Part shown: piece by piece, positions 12,573 to 20,955 of the stretch
Numbering within the stretch: the stretch's first letter is position 1
Layout: each line of letters begins with the position of its first letter
DNA from: Bacteroidota bacterium
GTDB taxonomy: Bacteria; Bacteroidota; Bacteroidia; UKL13-3
Direction of reading: 5' to 3'
Assembly: GCA_027491355.1 (NCBI GenBank)
Contig: JAIXWI010000035.1
Span: 1-33,142 of the forward strand
Length of the DNA stretch: 33,142 bases
Translations under genes and position numbers: made by a program
Notes under the pieces: generated by a model
Seen by the model: the letters and a program-made list of their open reading frames with translations, nothing else
What the model was told of the DNA's origin: nothing
The model's database searches: none

Positions 12573-12716
12573 GATGGTTTATTTTAATACGAATGTATAT
12601 GCCAAATCAGGTGTATGCAAAATTATTTATGTATTTTTATTTAAAACCAAAAATTATAACAATTAGCTGAAATCTTTAACATTCAATTCTTAAAAAAGCC
12701 CTTAATATTGTGTGAG

Positions 12717-13292
12717 ATGCCTCAACCTATTTACATCAAAAACATGGTCAGCAAACGTTGTATCCAAACTGTTCAGCGCATTTTGGATGAATTAAGTGTG
12801 ACTTATCTTAAAGTAAATTTAGGCAGTATCGAATTCACAAAACCCATAGAGCCTGCTCTCAAAAACGAGCTAAAATTAGCTATCCAAAAGGCTGGTTTTG
12901 AAATTTTAATTGGAAAAGAACAGCAGTTAATTGAGCAAATAAAATTAGCGGTTTTAGAAATGATTTATTTTGGTAACAATTTAAATACCATCATCAGAAA
13001 CTCAGACTATTTAAGTGATAAAATTGGCAAATCGTATGCGTACATCAGTAAGCATTTCAGCGACAATACTGGTCATACAATTGAAAAATATATCATATTG
13101 GTAAAGTTAGAACGTGTAAAAGAATTATTGAGCTATAATGAAATGACTTTGAGTGAAATATCTTACCAAATGGGTTATAGCAGTGTGCAACATTTATCAA
13201 ACCAATTCAAACAAGTAACTGGAATGAGTGTGAGTGAATTCAAAGCACTTCCAATAAAACCAAGAACTCCGTTAGATGAAATAATCCCCTAA
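12717..13292 (+). CDS. short AraC-type regulator with degenerate HMA-like N-terminus
   Basis: 192 residues from the ATG at 12717 (a TTG three codons earlier is less likely). The C-terminal ~100 residues are an AraC DNA-binding domain: SDKIGKSYAYISKHFSDNTG and, in the second helix-turn-helix, LSEISYQMGYSSVQHLSNQF followed by KQVTGMSVSEFK. The N-terminal ~65 residues (IYIKNMVSKRCIQTVQRILD, then LKVNLGSIEF) follow the beta-alpha-beta pattern of heavy-metal-associated domains. Where those have M-x-C-x-x-C, this has MVSKRC, so only the second cysteine remains. It has its own downstream hairpin (13313-13334) and lies just upstream of the PqqD/ATP-grasp run, which it may regulate. Confidence 0.85.
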   Translation: MPQPIYIKNMVSKRCIQTVQRILDELSVTYLKVNLGSIEFTKPIEPALKNELKLAIQKAGFEILIGKEQQLIEQIKLAVLEMIYFGNNLNTIIRNSDYLSDKIGKSYAYISKHFSDNTGHTIEKYIILVKLERVKELLSYNEMTLSEISYQMGYSSVQHLSNQFKQVTGMSVSEFKALPIKPRTPLDEIIP

Positions 13293-13367: not shown

Positions 13368-13610
13368 ATGAAAATTAAAAAAAATATCGCCATCAGTGAA
13401 TCTGGATTTATTTTCAATCCAACAACTGGAGATTCATTTTCAACCAATCCGATTGGATTTGAAATTATCCATTTATTGAGAGAAGAGAAAGACAAAGAAG
13501 CAATCAAACAAAGTATTTTGAGTCGTTATGCAGTTGATGAGTCTACATTTGAAAAAGATTTTTATGATTTTTCAACACTGCTTCAAAATTCACAAATAGC
13601 AGAGGATTAA
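13368..13610 (+). CDS. PqqD-like small protein
   Basis: 80 residues. The fold pattern matches PqqD/RiPP-recognition-element proteins: a two-strand start with FNPTTGDSFSTNPIGFEIIH, then a winged-helix-like remainder (KEAIKQSILSRYAVDESTFE, followed by DFYDFSTLLQ). In known systems such proteins bind a peptide substrate and deliver it to a modifying enzyme. Here no radical SAM enzyme and no precursor peptide are adjacent; the next gene, 2 bp on, is an ATP-grasp ligase. It may be a peptide- or carrier-binding partner of that ligase. The C-terminus ends in Glu-Asp, which leaves open that it is itself the acceptor, but that is speculation. Confidence 0.75.
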   Translation: MKIKKNIAISESGFIFNPTTGDSFSTNPIGFEIIHLLREEKDKEAIKQSILSRYAVDESTFEKDFYDFSTLLQNSQIAED

Positions 13611-13612
13611 AA

Positions 13613-14665
13613 ATGATACCAAAAAAACAGCTAACAATAGCAGTTTCAGGACTCAATAACATTGATAGTCCTGGCCCAGGAATACCTGTCATAAGGGCAT
13701 TGAAAGAAAGTGAATATTTTGATGTCAGAATTATTGGTCTTTCCTATGAGGCTTTAGAGCCTGGATTGTACATGCACAATTTGGTTGATAAATCATACCA
13801 GATTCCATTTCCAACCGCTGGAATAGATGCATTGATTGAAAGAATTTCATACATTCATCAATGCGAAAACATTGCTGTCATCATTCCAAATTTTGATGCT
13901 GAATTAAGCAATTTCATGAAGCTAGAACCAAGACTGTTGGCTGAGTTTGGCATTAAAATGTTTTTGCCAACCCAAGATCAATTTGACGAAAGACACAAAT
14001 CTAATTTGTTTGATTTTGGATTAAAACATGGCATCAAAGTTCCTTACAGCAAAATGATTTTCAGTACCGCTGAAATTCCAGGATTGTTGAATGAGTTTAC
14101 ATTCCCTATTGTTGTGAAAGGCAAATATTATGAAGCATATGTGGCTTATAATATTGAGCAAATACATAGTTATTTCAACAAATTAACGGCCAAATGGGGT
14201 TTACCAATTATCATTCAACAATATGTATTTGGAAGCGAAGTAAATGTTACAGCAATAGGCGATGGCAACGGCAATGCCATTGGTGCTGTCCCAATGAGAA
14301 AGCTTTACATAACTGATAAAGGAAAAGCATGGGCTGGCATTTCATTAGATGATGACAAATTGGTGCAGATAGCAAAAAAACTCATTTCCTCTTCCAAATG
14401 GAGAGGAGGAATGGAGTTGGAATTCATTAAAACTGCAGAAAACGAATATTACTTGTTGGAAATCAATCCTCGTTTCCCTGCTTGGGTATATTTAGCAAAA
14501 GGTTGTGGACAAAACCACCCTGAAGCACTGGTAAGAATGGCTTTGGGTGAAACGGTTACCCCTTTCAAAAATTATGAAATAGGTAAAATGTTTATCCGCT
14601 ATTCTTATGATATGGTAGTCGACTTAAAAGAATTTGAGCAAATCTCTACAATGGGAGAATTATAA
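13613..14665 (+). CDS. ATP-grasp carboxylate-amine ligase-like protein
   Basis: 350 residues. The N-terminal ~120 form a pre-ATP-grasp Rossmann-like domain (LTIAVSGLNNIDSPGPGIPV). The ATP-grasp core has the nucleotide lysine near 169 (FPIVVKGKYY), the hinge IIIQQYVFGSEVNV and metal ligands in GGMELEF (268-270) and YLLEINPRFPAWV (Glu283, Asn285). It is nearest to carbamoyl-phosphate-synthase/biotin-carboxylase-like ATP-grasp proteins and may be labelled so automatically, but no biotin carrier, carboxyltransferase or CarA partner is present. The expected chemistry is acyl-phosphate formation and transfer to an amine; the substrate is unknown. It lies 2 bp after the PqqD-like gene and 8 bp before the decarboxylase gene. 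Confidence 0.88.
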   Translation: MIPKKQLTIAVSGLNNIDSPGPGIPVIRALKESEYFDVRIIGLSYEALEPGLYMHNLVDKSYQIPFPTAGIDALIERISYIHQCENIAVIIPNFDAELSNFMKLEPRLLAEFGIKMFLPTQDQFDERHKSNLFDFGLKHGIKVPYSKMIFSTAEIPGLLNEFTFPIVVKGKYYEAYVAYNIEQIHSYFNKLTAKWGLPIIIQQYVFGSEVNVTAIGDGNGNAIGAVPMRKLYITDKGKAWAGISLDDDKLVQIAKKLISSSKWRGGMELEFIKTAENEYYLLEINPRFPAWVYLAKGCGQNHPEALVRMALGETVTPFKNYEIGKMFIRYSYDMVVDLKEFEQISTMGEL

Positions 14666-14673
14666 AAAAACTT

Positions 14674-16032
14674 ATGGAAAAATTAAGATACGAAAGACCG
14701 GTTGTTAAAAAATTAAATACCGGAATGATGAATAAATTTGGCACACGTACAGAATACAATCCTGTTACCCACATTGATGGTGTTGCGGTAAAGGAACTCA
14801 TCGGTAAATACGGTTCTCCCTTATTTGTAATTTCAGAACGTACCATTCGTCAAACCTATCAAGATTGTAAAAGAGCGTTTACCAATAGGTACCCTCGGGT
14901 GCAAATGGCTTGGAGTTACAAAACAAATTACATCAATGCCGTTTGTAATGTATTCCATCAAGAAGGCTCATGGGCAGAGGTTGTTTCTGGTTTCGAATAC
15001 AACAAAGCTCTTCAAAATGGAGTACCTGGTAATAAAATCATTTTCAATGGTCCAGATAAAACTGACAAAGATTTATTGTTGGCGATTGAACACAATTCGC
15101 TAATTCATATTGACCACCTGGATGAGTTGTATAGACTCATGGAAATTACCAAAGAGGTAAACAAAAGACCAAGGGTTGCCATTCGTGTGAATATGGACAC
15201 AGGAGTTTACCCAATGTGGGATAGATTCGGTTTTAATTACGAAACTGGTCAGGCTTGGGATGCCATCAATAAAATTATATTAAACGACCAAATGGATTTA
15301 GTGGGTTTGCATTGCCACATTGGTACGTTTATGCTAACAGCCAATGCCTATGCAATTGCAGCTTCAAAATTAGCTGACCTGGCTTACCATATACATGCCA
15401 AATTCAACAAAAAAATCACTTACATAGATTTAGGTGGTGGATTTGCATCAAAGAATACTTTAAGAGGATCGTATTTACAAGGAAACGTAAGTTCGCCAAG
15501 TTTTGATGATTATGCTGAGGCAATTTGTAGTGCATTGTTAAACGCAGAATACAGTAAACAAGAATTACCCTTATTAATTTTAGAAACAGGACGGGCTTTA
15601 ATTGACGATGCGGGTTCATTGTGTGGAACTGTTCTTGCAAACAAAAGATTGAGTGATGGAAGAAGAGCAACTATCATGGATTTTGGCGTGAATATTTTAT
15701 TTACTTCATTTTGGTACGAACATAAATTATCTCCAGCTCAAGAATTCAGCCACTATACCGAAGATGGTGTGGTTTATGGGCCATTGTGTATGAACATAGA
15801 TGTCATCAGAGAAAGTATTACCTTGCCTCCTATGAAAAAAGGCGACAATGTAGTGGTACATTCCGTTGGGGCTTATAACATGACACAATGGATGCAATTC
15901 ATTGCCATGAGACCAAATGTTGTGATGATAGATATGGATAGTAAAGTGCATTTGATCAGAAACAAAGAAACCCTGGAATACATTAACAACATTGAAGAAA
16001 TGCCAGGGTATTTAAAAGAATTCAAAATTTAA
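14674..16032 (+). CDS. fold-type III PLP decarboxylase (DAP-decarboxylase-like, substrate unknown)
   Basis: 452 residues with the alanine-racemase/ornithine-decarboxylase fold. The PLP lysine is Lys83 in WSYKTNYINAV, followed by EGSWAEVVSGFEY. His215 lies in GLHCHIGTF, the phosphate loop is DLGGGFAS and LILETGRALI follows. In the C-terminal barrel, GPLCMNIDVI has Cys372 and HSVGAYNM has Tyr401. Lysine-pathway DAP decarboxylases usually read CESxD where this reads CMNID, and EPGR where this reads ETGR, so the substrate carboxylate contact is altered. I infer decarboxylation of a different amino acid or an amino-acid conjugate. The first ~25 residues are an extra extension. It lies 8 bp after the ATP-grasp gene and 3 bp before the transporter fusion. 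Confidence 0.88.
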   Translation: MEKLRYERPVVKKLNTGMMNKFGTRTEYNPVTHIDGVAVKELIGKYGSPLFVISERTIRQTYQDCKRAFTNRYPRVQMAWSYKTNYINAVCNVFHQEGSWAEVVSGFEYNKALQNGVPGNKIIFNGPDKTDKDLLLAIEHNSLIHIDHLDELYRLMEITKEVNKRPRVAIRVNMDTGVYPMWDRFGFNYETGQAWDAINKIILNDQMDLVGLHCHIGTFMLTANAYAIAASKLADLAYHIHAKFNKKITYIDLGGGFASKNTLRGSYLQGNVSSPSFDDYAEAICSALLNAEYSKQELPLLILETGRALIDDAGSLCGTVLANKRLSDGRRATIMDFGVNILFTSFWYEHKLSPAQEFSHYTEDGVVYGPLCMNIDVIRESITLPPMKKGDNVVVHSVGAYNMTQWMQFIAMRPNVVMIDMDSKVHLIRNKETLEYINNIEEMPGYLKEFKI

Positions 16033-16035
16033 TCT

Positions 16036-18228
16036 ATGATTAAAAGTAGCAAGCAAATAACAAACCTGTCATTCTTAGGATTGGCAAACAGCTATGCACA
16101 GTTATTTCTTTCTACGAACCAGTTAGCTGGTTTACTTATAGGTATTGCAAGTTTTATTGATCCCATAGCCGGAAGTTGTGGGCTTGCAATGACTTTGTTA
16201 ACCAATGCCATTGCTTATCTGTTTCAACTTAACCAAGCTAAAATAAAATCGGGCACATTGGGCTACAATGCCCTTTTGACTGGATTGTTTATTGGTCATT
16301 CGTTTACATGGAGCCCCTATTTAATTCTGATTTTACTAACTGGTAGTATCTTATGCTTAATGCTTACAGTTACTTTTGAAAATTGGCTCAGTAAAAATGC
16401 ATTACCCTTTTTGAGTTTACCTTTTTTAGCTTGTGTATGGCTTTTAAAATTAGCTACCACCGGCTTGAGTAATTTAGATCCAAACTTAAATGAGTTATTT
16501 GTTTTCAATCATTTGTACAGGGTTGGTGGAGAAAACCTACTCAACACTTATTTGTCTATAGAACAGCTTCCCATTCCTCAGGTAATTGCAGTATACTTTA
16601 AATCGTTGGGTGCAGTTTTGTTTCAATACAGCCTAGGCTCAGGAATTTTGGTTGCAACCGCAATTTTAATACATTCCAGAATTGCGTTTTCATTGTCTGT
16701 TTTGAGTTTTATTTCAGGGTATCTCTTTTACCAAATTATTGGAGCCAATATGAATGATCTCAACTATGGATTCATTGGCTTTAATTTCATTTTGAGTGGA
16801 ATGGCCTTGGGAGGGTTTTATTTGATACCAAGTAGGTGGTCTTTTTTATTGACATTATTGATTTCTCCAACCATTGCAATAATTGGAATAGGGTCTGAAA
16901 AAATACTAAGTGTGTTTCAAATCCCTTTACTTTCCCTTCCTTTCAACTTGTTTGTTATTTTGTTCTTGTACTTTTTATACTTCAGAGAAAAAGCTGTTTT
17001 TCTTCACTTGACACCGAACCAATTTGCCTCACCAGAAAAGAATTTATACAGTTACCAAAATAAAGCAAATAGGTATGGGGGCCTTGCATCGTTTAAAATA
17101 CACTTACCAATTATTGGTAAGATGAGAATTTCACAAGGTCATGATGGTAAAATTACTCACTTATCTGATTGGAAATATGCATGGGATTTTGATGCTACAG
17201 ACGCCGAGAATAGAACCTACCGATTACCAGGTATTTTAGTTGAAGATTATTACTGCTACAACCTGCCCGTTATTGCTCCTGCATCTGGAACAGTTGTTAA
17301 GGTAACAGACCATGTCAAAGACAATAGCATTAACCAAGTAAACCTTACAGAAAACTGGGGAAATACCGTAATCATTCAACATGCTCCTTATTTATTTAGT
17401 AAATTGTCTCACTTAAAAAAAGGATCAATAAAAGTTCAGGAAGGAGAATGGGTTGCTATGGGAAAAACCATTGGAAATATTGGCAACTCAGGAAGATCTC
17501 CAGAACCCCATTTACATTTTCAATTGCAAAGCACTCCCTACATTGGTTCACCTACACTTCATTTCCCAATTAGTAATTATATTGAATTTATAGAAGAGCG
17601 AGTTTCATTCAAAAGAAACGGAGTTCCAAAAATTGGTAACTGGGTAGAGAATCCTATTCCCAATAAATTACTACAAGAGTCTCTTTCTTTCATTCCCGGT
17701 AAAAAATACAATTGGCATATTTCTGAAACCAATCAAATAGAAACATGGGAATCGCATACCGATGCATACAATAACCGTTATTTATTCGACTCAAAAACCT
17801 CTTCATATATGTATTTCTCAAATGACAATCAACTTTTTGAGGCACATTCATTTTATGGTGATAAAAACAGTTTACTTTTTCATTTTTATATAGCGTCTCA
17901 ACAAATTTTGATGAGCTTCTATCCAAATCTTCGGATTGAAAACCCATTGAATATCAGCGAAGTTTATTCAGCATCCCAACGATTTTTACAAGATTGGATT
18001 GCCCCATTTTACTTGTATTTACAAGCAAAATGTATGCTCAACTATGCTCACATAGATGACGACATTCAATCACCAAAAATCATACTTGAGGGAATGGTGC
18101 AGCCTAGCAATTTACTGTCTAAAAAATCATTTTTTGATTTTAAACTAGAATTTGAAAACGGTCAATTGTCACAATTTAAATTAAATTCAAGTAATCAGCA
18201 ATTAACTGCTACATGTGTCAGCAACTAA
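16036..18228 (+). CDS. urea-transporter-like membrane protein fused to M23 metallopeptidase domain
   Basis: 730 residues. Residues 1-320 are hydrophobic with about ten membrane segments and two related halves, each with a urea-transporter-like loop: GTLGYNALLTGLFIGHSF (73-90) and LNYGFIGFNFILSGMALGG (242-260). After a short linker, residues about 350-515 are an M23 peptidase/LytM domain: ITHLSDWKYAWDFDA (His375, Asp384), LPVIAPASGTVVKV, NTVIIQHAP (His449) and SPEPHLHFQL (His492, His494). The His-to-Asp spacing is wider than the classic HxxxD but the metal and catalytic residues appear present. The last ~215 residues are unrecognised. It would combine passage of a small solute with an enzymatic or binding module facing the periplasm. 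It overlaps the next gene by 16 bp. Confidence 0.85.
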   Translation: MIKSSKQITNLSFLGLANSYAQLFLSTNQLAGLLIGIASFIDPIAGSCGLAMTLLTNAIAYLFQLNQAKIKSGTLGYNALLTGLFIGHSFTWSPYLILILLTGSILCLMLTVTFENWLSKNALPFLSLPFLACVWLLKLATTGLSNLDPNLNELFVFNHLYRVGGENLLNTYLSIEQLPIPQVIAVYFKSLGAVLFQYSLGSGILVATAILIHSRIAFSLSVLSFISGYLFYQIIGANMNDLNYGFIGFNFILSGMALGGFYLIPSRWSFLLTLLISPTIAIIGIGSEKILSVFQIPLLSLPFNLFVILFLYFLYFREKAVFLHLTPNQFASPEKNLYSYQNKANRYGGLASFKIHLPIIGKMRISQGHDGKITHLSDWKYAWDFDATDAENRTYRLPGILVEDYYCYNLPVIAPASGTVVKVTDHVKDNSINQVNLTENWGNTVIIQHAPYLFSKLSHLKKGSIKVQEGEWVAMGKTIGNIGNSGRSPEPHLHFQLQSTPYIGSPTLHFPISNYIEFIEERVSFKRNGVPKIGNWVENPIPNKLLQESLSFIPGKKYNWHISETNQIETWESHTDAYNNRYLFDSKTSSYMYFSNDNQLFEAHSFYGDKNSLLFHFYIASQQILMSFYPNLRIENPLNISEVYSASQRFLQDWIAPFYLYLQAKCMLNYAHIDDDIQSPKIILEGMVQPSNLLSKKSFFDFKLEFENGQLSQFKLNSSNQQLTATCVSN

Positions 18229-19388
18229 AAAAAATTATAATTTTCGTTGGTATTCTAATTTGTTCGTTGCAATTAACCTCACAAACAATTGGTTCATTTG
18301 TTGGATTGACAGATTCTATTGCAGCATTTGAAAAACAAAAAAACTTTACCAAAATTATCGCAATTGGTAAATTAGCCATTCACCGAGATATTGATTTTTA
18401 CAAACTCAGAATGAGCTTAGGAAATGCTTATTTAAATAAAGGTAACTTTCAACAAGCATACTTGCATTTCAATAAGGCTTATCAATTTGACCCTTCTTCA
18501 ATTGAGGCCTTACAGAATTTGAATACTTGTGCTGTTTTGAATGGTCAAAATAATTTAAGCAATTATTACAAACCTAAATTGGGAATTACCAACCAAGTTT
18601 TACAAAAAGTTTATGCTGAAACCGGAAGTAAATTAAGTAGTAGAACGGATTCAATCAATCACCTCTATTATGTTCATTTAGGCTTATTATTGAATATTAG
18701 TAAACAATTAGAAACCTACCAAGGATATTTTTATTGTACTCAAAAGAGTAGTCTTTATGATGTAACGCAACACCAATATCTTGGCATAGCAACAATTGTA
18801 TTAAATCCTACTTTACAACTTAAACTTGGATTTTCTTATTTACAGGCTTTGGTTAATGAGCACTTTCAAAATAGTCAACAAACCATAGCTAATTTTACAG
18901 AGGCCATTACCATCAACAAGCAAATTGCTAACCTGAATATTGGATTAAATGCTGCCATTTGCAGGTTAAATAAACAAGAACAATGGCAAATTGGAGCACT
19001 GTTTCAATATGCACCACTTGGAAACGACAAATTGAACATTCAATTCAATCCCATTTTACAAAACCAAAACACAGAATACAAAGTCATTTACAATCCTAGT
19101 GTTTCCATCAAATTATGGAAGAATAGTTGGCTAATAGGCACTTATACTTATGCGAACACTACTAACTATATAGAACAAGAAGGATTTATGGTACACAACA
19201 ATTACGATACAACTAATGATAAATTTGCATTGATGTTCAATTACAAAACACAAAGCAATAAAGATTTTTATCTTTGTTATCAATTAGAAAGCAAAACCAG
19301 AAAGTATTTGGAGCCGCTTTATTATTCAGAAGTCAATCAAGTATACACCTTTAATAATTTAATCATAGGCTATACCCTTAAAAACTAA
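18213..19388 (+). CDS. TPR plus outer-membrane barrel protein (YaiO-like architecture)
   Basis: 391 residues with a signal peptide (QLKKIIIFVGILICSLQLTS). Residues about 65-115 hold a TPR pair (LGNAYLNKGNFQQAYLHFNK, then AYQFDPSSIEALQNLNT). From about 145 to the end, alternating strands such as YYVHLGLLLNISKQ, NLNIGLNAAICRL and WLIGTYTYANTT, with the final strand NLIIGYTLKN ending in an aromatic-rich turn, suggest an outer-membrane barrel. The order TPR then barrel recalls YaiO-type proteins; this is inference from layout. It overlaps the transporter fusion by 16 bp and the secreted TPR gene follows after 3 bp, so it is likely the outer-membrane part of the same pathway. Confidence 0.72.
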   Translation: MCQQLKKIIIFVGILICSLQLTSQTIGSFVGLTDSIAAFEKQKNFTKIIAIGKLAIHRDIDFYKLRMSLGNAYLNKGNFQQAYLHFNKAYQFDPSSIEALQNLNTCAVLNGQNNLSNYYKPKLGITNQVLQKVYAETGSKLSSRTDSINHLYYVHLGLLLNISKQLETYQGYFYCTQKSSLYDVTQHQYLGIATIVLNPTLQLKLGFSYLQALVNEHFQNSQQTIANFTEAITINKQIANLNIGLNAAICRLNKQEQWQIGALFQYAPLGNDKLNIQFNPILQNQNTEYKVIYNPSVSIKLWKNSWLIGTYTYANTTNYIEQEGFMVHNNYDTTNDKFALMFNYKTQSNKDFYLCYQLESKTRKYLEPLYYSEVNQVYTFNNLIIGYTLKN

Positions 19389-19391
19389 TAT

Positions 19392-20003
19392 ATGAACAAA
19401 ATAATTACCATTTTTTACCTATTCATTCTGTTCAATACTACTTTATTTGCTCAGAATAACAAGTTGGCCACCGCATTTAGCAACAGCTATCAATTTGAAA
19501 AGAAAGGTGATTACATAAATGCCCAAAAAGAAATACTGGCTGTTTACCAAGACAAAAGCTATGAAATGAATTTGCGTTTAGGTTGGCTATTGTACAATGA
19601 AGGTGAAATGATCAAGTCTAAGGAATATTATGAAAAAGCAATTGCTATCATGCCTTATGCCATTGAGCCAAAACTAGGTATAGTGTATCCACTTTCTAGC
19701 ATAGGGAACTGGGATGCTGTGCTTGAAACATATTTGAAAATTTTAAAAGTTGACCCAAATAACAATTTAGTAAATTATAGAACTGGTTTGATTTACTACA
19801 ACAGAAAAGAGTATGCAAAAGCCATTGGCTATTTGCAAAAAAACATCAATTTGTATCCATTCAATTATGAGAATTTAATACTTTCGGCATGGGCTCATTT
19901 GTATGCAGGACAAAATACTGAAGCAAAAGCTTTGTTTGAAAAATGTTTATTAATTAACATTGAAGATGAATCAGCTAAAGCTGGACTGAAACTGATAAAA
20001 TAA
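19392..20003 (+). CDS. secreted/periplasmic TPR protein
   Basis: 203 residues, with signal peptide MNKIITIFYLFILFNTTLFA. The mature part is a run of about four to five tetratricopeptide repeats, for example AQKEILAVYQ, LRLGWLLYNEGEMIKSKEYY with EKAIAIMPYAIEPK following, YRTGLIYYNRKEYAKAIGYL and LSAWAHLYAGQNTEAKALFE. TPR arrays are protein-protein scaffolds. It probably bridges the inner-membrane fusion protein and the outer-membrane TPR-barrel protein encoded just upstream (3-bp gap). No enzyme motif is seen. Confidence 0.85.
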   Translation: MNKIITIFYLFILFNTTLFAQNNKLATAFSNSYQFEKKGDYINAQKEILAVYQDKSYEMNLRLGWLLYNEGEMIKSKEYYEKAIAIMPYAIEPKLGIVYPLSSIGNWDAVLETYLKILKVDPNNNLVNYRTGLIYYNRKEYAKAIGYLQKNINLYPFNYENLILSAWAHLYAGQNTEAKALFEKCLLINIEDESAKAGLKLIK

Positions 20004-20007
20004 CACT

Positions 20008-20955
20008 GTGAAATTAAAACTCGATTTCTATTTTGAAGCAAACAAAGAACGGATCAATCACCATTCCAATGTGATTTTCACTGGCTCATGCTTTGCCTTT
20101 CAAATGCATGAAAAACTCAGTCAACTAAAATTGAACGCTCAATTTTTAGGAAATGGTATTGTATTTCACCCCAGCATCATTGCTGAATACATTCAGCTTT
20201 GTTTAAAAAAAGAAGACTTTCCTGAACACTTAGTGTTTGAACACAATGGCATTTGGCATTCTTGGATGCACCATGGTTCAGTATGGGCCAATACAAAGTC
20301 TGAACTATTAACAAACATCAACTATGTGTTACAAAAAGATGCTGCAATGCTTTTAACTAGCAAGCAATTGGTAGTAACATTTGGAAGTAGTTATGTTTAC
20401 AGCAAATTGGAGAATGGAATTGCTGTTGCTAATTGTCATAAAGTTCCCTCATCTCATTTCATTAAGCAATTGAGTAGCCATTTTGAAATGCTACAAATTT
20501 GGATGCAGTGCATCAATGAACTAAAAAGACAGAACCCTTCAATTAGTTTTATATTCTCTGTAAGTCCAGTAAAATATATCAAAGATGGCATACATGAAAA
20601 CAATATCAGTAAAGCCAATTTGTTAATTTTGGTTAATGAAATTTGTAAATCCAATGACGCTGCTTATTATTTTCCAGCTTTTGAAATTTTACAGGATGAG
20701 TTAAGAGATTATCGGTTTTATGCCAGCGATTTTTCACATCCAACTGAACAAGCCATAGCTTATATTTTTGAACTGTTTACAGACAAATGCATTGACCAAG
20801 ATACACAAATTGTTTTGAATGAAATTGGGGCTTACAATCAATTATTGAATCACCGCATTTTGCATGCTAACACCAAAGAACATGCTTTATTAGAAGGCAA
20901 AAAAGTACACGTTCTGTCACAACTTAAACAACGCTATCCTCATTTAAACTGGTAA
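20008..20955 (+). CDS. GSCFA-family (SGNH-like hydrolase) protein
   Basis: 315 residues starting with GTG, 4 bp after the TPR gene. The name-giving motif is FTGSCFAFQMHEKL (Gly26-Ala30), where Ser27 sits as an SGNH/GDSL block I nucleophile would. FGSSYVYSKLENG lies mid-chain, and FYASDFSHPTEQA gives Asp241 and His244 with the D-x-x-H spacing of SGNH block V. No signal peptide is visible, so it is probably cytoplasmic. SGNH-fold enzymes are esterases or acyltransferases; no reaction is established for this family to my knowledge. GSCFA genes are common in Bacteroidota in varied contexts, so its place in the pathway run is less certain than that of the six genes before it. Confidence 0.88.
   Translation: MKLKLDFYFEANKERINHHSNVIFTGSCFAFQMHEKLSQLKLNAQFLGNGIVFHPSIIAEYIQLCLKKEDFPEHLVFEHNGIWHSWMHHGSVWANTKSELLTNINYVLQKDAAMLLTSKQLVVTFGSSYVYSKLENGIAVANCHKVPSSHFIKQLSSHFEMLQIWMQCINELKRQNPSISFIFSVSPVKYIKDGIHENNISKANLLILVNEICKSNDAAYYFPAFEILQDELRDYRFYASDFSHPTEQAIAYIFELFTDKCIDQDTQIVLNEIGAYNQLLNHRILHANTKEHALLEGKKVHVLSQLKQRYPHLNW

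Follow-up and report, generated by a model that had tools for sequence, protein, structure and literature searches.

A conserved Bacteroidota gene cassette with a discrete PqqD-like protein and a leader-like tail on its decarboxylase

What might a PqqD-like protein, an ATP-grasp ligase, a PLP decarboxylase, a fusion of a urea-transporter (UT) fold to an M23 domain and two exported proteins be doing together in one row of genes? The question is raised by a contig of 33,142 nucleotides (C44, analysed over its full length and referred to here as the window) from a Bacteroidota genome of 2.44 Mb that is 99.99% complete. We examined the six proteins, their relatives across the phylum and the known systems that they resemble, and arrive at a candidate biosynthetic unit in which one enzyme appears to carry its own recognition tag.

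A six-gene cassette and its distribution

ORF coordinates agree with the initial annotation in placing six genes (A–F) on the plus strand, separated by 2, 8, 3, −16 and 3 bp, and profile searches show the domain names given there to be right in the main. The features are as follows.

12708..13292, plus strand: AraC-type HTH regulator (PF12833, 4.6e-16), 75 bp upstream of A
13368..13610, plus strand: A, PqqD-like discrete RRE, 80 aa (PF05402, 31.9 bits, above cut-off)
13613..14665, plus strand: B, ATP-grasp ligase, 350 aa, carbamoyl-phosphate-synthase-like/PRK12767-like (PF15632/PF02655, above cut-offs)
14674..14745, plus strand: leader-like N-terminal tail of C, residues 1–24 (Y6-E-R-P9-x-[ILV]...G17...K21-F-G23)
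14674..16032, plus strand: C, PLP decarboxylase of alanine-racemase fold, 452 aa, FigC/FslC-like with Cys372-Met373 (both Orn/DAP/Arg decarboxylase domains)
16036..18228, plus strand: D, urea-transporter-fold domain, M23 and C-terminal domain (Urea transporter and Peptidase_M23 matches)
18213..19388, plus strand: E, exported protein with an N-terminal TPR and a probable outer-membrane β-barrel, 391 aa (one TPR, below Pfam cut-off)
19392..20003, plus strand: F, exported TPR protein, 203 aa (TPR match; signal peptide ending ...FAQ)

Within the genus, and at loci L045, L046, L048, L049 and L129, the AraC-type gene keeps its place upstream of A; it is probably the regulator of the cassette, outside its core set. 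Promoter and terminator scans of the region scored no better than shuffles. A GSCFA-family gene (window 20008–20955) starts 4 bp past F; we rejected it as a seventh member, as it adjoins F only within the genus.

Orthologs of B, at 53–94% identity, occur in many genomes of the host's family and reach into several further families, and nearly all of these loci that are uncut by a contig end retain the order A-B-C-D-E-F. In a phylum sample of 395 Bacteroidota genomes, B was found in 34 and D in 34, the two sets of genomes being identical. All 33 loci fetched from this sample (window excluded) have A-B-C-D in order on one strand, and each full-length UT–M23 protein of the sample sits inside a cassette. 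The neighbourhood comparison that the initial annotation had proposed for the ATP-grasp and UT–M23 homologs thus finds them together in conserved order, not mostly apart, and its view of one conserved unit is borne out. Roughly 9% of the sampled Bacteroidota species have the cassette, spanning two or more classes. Among the fetched loci, F is present after D or E at nearly every locus long enough to show it and was not found in three; E is absent or unrecognisable in several families.

Family f88 (draft genomes G611 and G668) is arranged differently: B stands alone among unrelated genes, and the four genes A–D are spread over separate contigs, all of them retained and C still with its tail (L165, L166, L178, L179, L181–L184). 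That the operon is lost while its genes are kept argues for a shared function. A search of literature readable without subscription returned no description of the six-gene set, in keeping with the earlier statement that no known pathway has it. PADLOC gave no match to anti-phage defence, and the cassette was not found in IMG/VR.

The two enzymes and the leader-like tail

By closest similarity and by its Cys-Met signature, C is a decarboxylase of the N-citrylornithine type and not a diaminopimelate (DAP) decarboxylase. Its best solved match is the N-citrylornithine decarboxylase FigC (7kh2, 8.5e-75), with LysA next (5.8e-56); the NCBIfam FslC model scores 240.5 bits, under its 500-bit cut-off. 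An invariant Met373 lies beside the catalytic Cys372, the same pair as in FigC. LysA and ornithine decarboxylases have an acidic residue adjoining the catalytic Cys, where FigC has Met (PMC7857480). Alignment to 1twi shows that the Arg that binds the distal carboxylate of DAP is Thr in C, leaving it with neither the acidic residue nor the DAP Arg of LysA and upholding the non-DAP signature noted at the outset. The host genome has a separate canonical LysA-like gene (at C36), which places C outside lysine synthesis. The FigC clade, which includes SbnH, AcsE, MccE and BtrK, acts on conjugated or carrier-bound amino acids.

Two known systems offer parallels for B and C. In rhizoferrin synthesis by FigA/FigC (FslA/FslC), a ligase likewise makes a conjugate that then meets a Cys-Met decarboxylase like C. 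The cassette differs in that B is an ATP-grasp enzyme and not an NIS synthetase, in that no citrate enzymes were seen, and in the presence of the RRE and the tail. BtrJ of butirosin synthesis is an ATP-grasp ligase, and the BtrJ/BtrK pair likewise combines such a ligase with an alanine-racemase-fold decarboxylase, acting on a carrier-bound amino acid, whereas the cassette is without an acyl-carrier protein. The best plasmid match to B outside Bacteroidota is a Streptomyces zaomyceticus protein of 758 residues (L186:8998-11274, equal to NZ_CP108525.1 134492-136768), in which an N-terminal B-like ATP-grasp is joined to a C-terminal C-like decarboxylase with S-C-M-x-x-D. This fusion suggests that the two enzymes act on one substrate in succession. 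A 195-aa protein and a fatty acid desaturase are encoded beside the fusion ORF. Plasmid relatives of B came to three distant matches only, the Priestia one having sugar and aminotransferase genes around it and none of the partners.

New here is a leader-type tail on C which, at the level of sequence, matches the lasso-type RRE motif. About 24 residues precede the decarboxylase domain (the FigC match begins at residue 30), with a consensus over 73 sequences of [YF]-E-[RK]-P-x-[ILV]-x-[KR]-x-x-[TAS]-G-x-x-x-K-[FY]-G. Pro, Lys and [ILV] are present in all 73 and Gly23 in 72; the first position is Tyr in 65 and Phe in 8, and residue 11, usually Ile in relatives, is Val in the window. The tail fits [Y/W]xxPx[L/V/I/F/A], the leader motif recognised by discrete lasso RREs, for which the mode of holding has been shown (PMC13381572). 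So loose a motif also turns up by chance, in 13 of 247 background ORFs (about 5%), and the argument therefore rests on the conservation of the tail.

A, the sole PqqD match in its host genome, is a PF05402 member closest to lasso-type RREs, the nearest solved structures being TbiB1 (8e-12) and TfuB1 (4e-7). A gapless alignment to PbaB1 pairs N27, D64 and F68 of A with G42, Q79 and F83, positions that have been equated with N33, D70 and F74 of LppB (PMC13381572). In LppB, N33 clamps the leader backbone at the proline, D70 hydrogen-bonds the leader Tyr and F74 forms the wall between two pockets; N33A nearly abolishes binding (PMC13381572). These YxxP-type leader-gripping residues are present in the A proteins that accompany Tyr-bearing tails: N27 in 62/65 (Ser in the other three), D64 in 65/65 and F68 in 60/65. 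Known leader contacts account for five of the six conserved positions considered in the A domain (27, 33, 64, 68 and 72; hypergeometric p 0.004), in an RRE core that is possibly conserved for other reasons too. Lasso-peptide and LPP RRE–leader pairs (TbiB1, FusB1/TfuB1, PbaB1 and LppB) therefore share a fold family and gripping residues with A, and [Y/W]xxPx[LVIFA] with the tail of C. They differ in that the leader of the cassette belongs to an enzyme and theirs to a precursor peptide, and in that the cassette has no lasso cyclase, B2 protease or kinase. Near the 33 cassettes, 828 small ORFs yielded 12 motif matches, none of them recurring; a precursor may be encoded far away. Taken on sequence, A most likely recognises the tail of C and not a separate substrate, so that of the substrate-recognition protein first proposed the recognition role stands and the separate substrate probably does not.

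The tail and residue 64 of A change together. We found 65 pairs of Tyr with Asp64, 8 of Phe with Tyr or His64 and none mixed, and no position of A other than Asp64 combines conservation of 95% or more in the Tyr group with loss in the Phe group. Loss of the tail Tyr hydroxyl would be expected to allow the loss of Asp64. In a tree of B a single branch (support 83) sets the Phe group apart, indicating one event, and a search of three further groups added three Phe-type genomes, all in the same clade. We accordingly rejected multiple independent switches and count one; because the event is single, a Fisher's p for the switch is not independent evidence.

Membrane and envelope proteins

D is modular, with a UT domain at residues 17–313, M23 at about 355–513 and a C-terminal domain at 545–730. 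The UT match (PF03253, 5.7e-53) is complemented by a predicted model that matches 3k3f/9j22 and has the complete ten-helix fold (Z about 31), confirming the inner-membrane channel-like protein of the initial annotation. D thus has the whole fold of urea transporters such as dvUT and UT-B, from which it differs by its fusion to M23 and by pore Thr positions that are mostly Ser and a changed Glu in the second half. No urease was found over cut-off in 58 relatives, making urea supply an unlikely purpose of D. The M23 zinc and catalytic residues (H375, D384, H459, H492 and H494) are present in 60/60 D sequences.

The M23 domain was at first placed in the periplasm, a position that UT topology and charge do not favour. 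Both termini of a UT domain are cytoplasmic (a phosphorylated cytoplasmic loop joins the halves of UT-A1), and the loop charges fit this arrangement, averaging about 9 Lys/Arg and 3 Asp/Glu inside against about 3 and 6.6 outside over 60 sequences. Homology and charge bias together predict a cytoplasmic M23 domain, which we hold to be fairly probable and no firmer, since M23 domains are usually exported. The C-terminal 186 residues of D (window 17668–18225) form a better-predicted domain with no Pfam match; a weak fold match to a Parabacteroides lipoprotein (4fvs, Z 8.4, 155 aligned, RMSD 4.6) is not relied on.

E is likely an outer-membrane barrel, judging by C-termini with the alternation typical of outer-membrane barrels and a final residue that is aromatic or hydrophobic; AlphaFold2 modelled it poorly (mean pLDDT 38.9). 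Of the outer-membrane TPR/barrel protein originally described, the barrel is in keeping with this terminal pattern, the TPR falls below the Pfam cut-off and the place of E as a universal member is not sustained. PgaA and BcsC are TPR-barrel exporters. E likewise combines a TPR with a probable barrel, but is far smaller, and the cassette is without a polysaccharide synthase. The signal peptide of F is clear and, with the TPR matches, agrees with the exported TPR proteins expected here.

Proposed pathway and alternatives

The original interpretation is partly supported: the unit and its components hold, and the side of the M23 domain, the recognised substrate and the universality of E require revision. 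On balance, and by a narrow preference, we favour a conserved unit that makes and exports a compound derived from an amino acid, built around a complex of A with the tail of C. In the cytoplasm, B would form an amide-type bond between an amino acid and a partner molecule, with the α-carboxylate of the amino acid left free, and C would remove that carboxylate from the conjugate. A would hold Tyr6, Pro9 and Val11 of the tail in its two-pocket cleft, with Tyr6 to Asp64, and so bring C into a complex, in the simplest case one with B. D would process the product, pass it across the inner membrane or both, and F in the periplasm and E in the outer membrane (where present) would extend this route across the envelope. 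Binding between A and C, the order of B then C, and transport are inferred here, export from domain types alone; that UT channels pass very small molecules counts against the export reading. If the scheme is correct, the RRE–leader handshake, so far seen with RiPP precursors, would here serve to recruit an enzyme, and what orphan PqqD-like proteins do becomes testable. The cassette, described in none of the papers that we found, points to a conserved small-molecule product.

Given the invariant Lys, the tail might also serve as the carrier of the substrate. Lys21 lies 15 residues past Tyr6, and both it (73/73) and Gly23 (72/73) are beyond the RRE-binding stretch, where a leader is thought to meet its modifying enzymes. 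B, guided by A, might then load an amino acid on Lys21, C might decarboxylate it in place and a cytoplasmic M23 domain might release it. BtrK, which acts on the glutamyl-BtrI carrier, is a precedent, an RRE is present and no separate carrier or precursor gene lies near the cassette. A conserved Lys may however serve structure, and the Streptomyces fusion starts directly at its ATP-grasp domain without a tail; we regard this route as unlikely. A broader RiPP/carrier-protein hybrid, with an RRE recognising a leader built into an enzyme, the tail as covalent carrier and export through a channel–peptidase, is a tentative idea and only slightly less doubtful.

Modification of the envelope would put the conjugate made by B and C to use in the wall or envelope, with a periplasmic M23 domain of D acting on peptidoglycan. 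The full set of M23 zinc and catalytic residues, the exported TPR proteins and the weak lipoprotein-like fold at the end of D would suit this, but UT topology and charge bias put M23 in the cytoplasm and, in the loci inspected, no further genes were seen to travel with the cassette; we think it distinctly unlikely. An ordinary RiPP system, in which A binds a peptide encoded elsewhere and the C tail is a decoy or second client, seems more improbable again: A genuinely belongs to an RRE family and the genome has no second PqqD match, but the small ORFs around the 33 cassettes include no recurring motif-bearing one, and the leader-type covariation is with C itself. The automatic family names would allow a misreading of household genes, namely LysA and a urea transporter among unrelated neighbours. 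This we consider extremely unlikely, given a C without DAP-binding determinants and the perfect co-occurrence of B and D, and LysA with urea uptake was rejected on the LysA-like gene elsewhere, the lack of urease matches over cut-off in 58 relatives and the Cys-Met signature.

Individual cassettes depart from the common pattern in smaller ways. D is split across two overlapping frames in G062 (L129), and the B–C or C–D gap reaches 300–700 bp in a few genomes (L043, L049). In three cassettes of one genus (L169, L170 and L171), Ser replaces Asn27 of A while the Tyr/Asp64 pair is kept, and the middle of the tail is off consensus (RRLTAAPL or similar).
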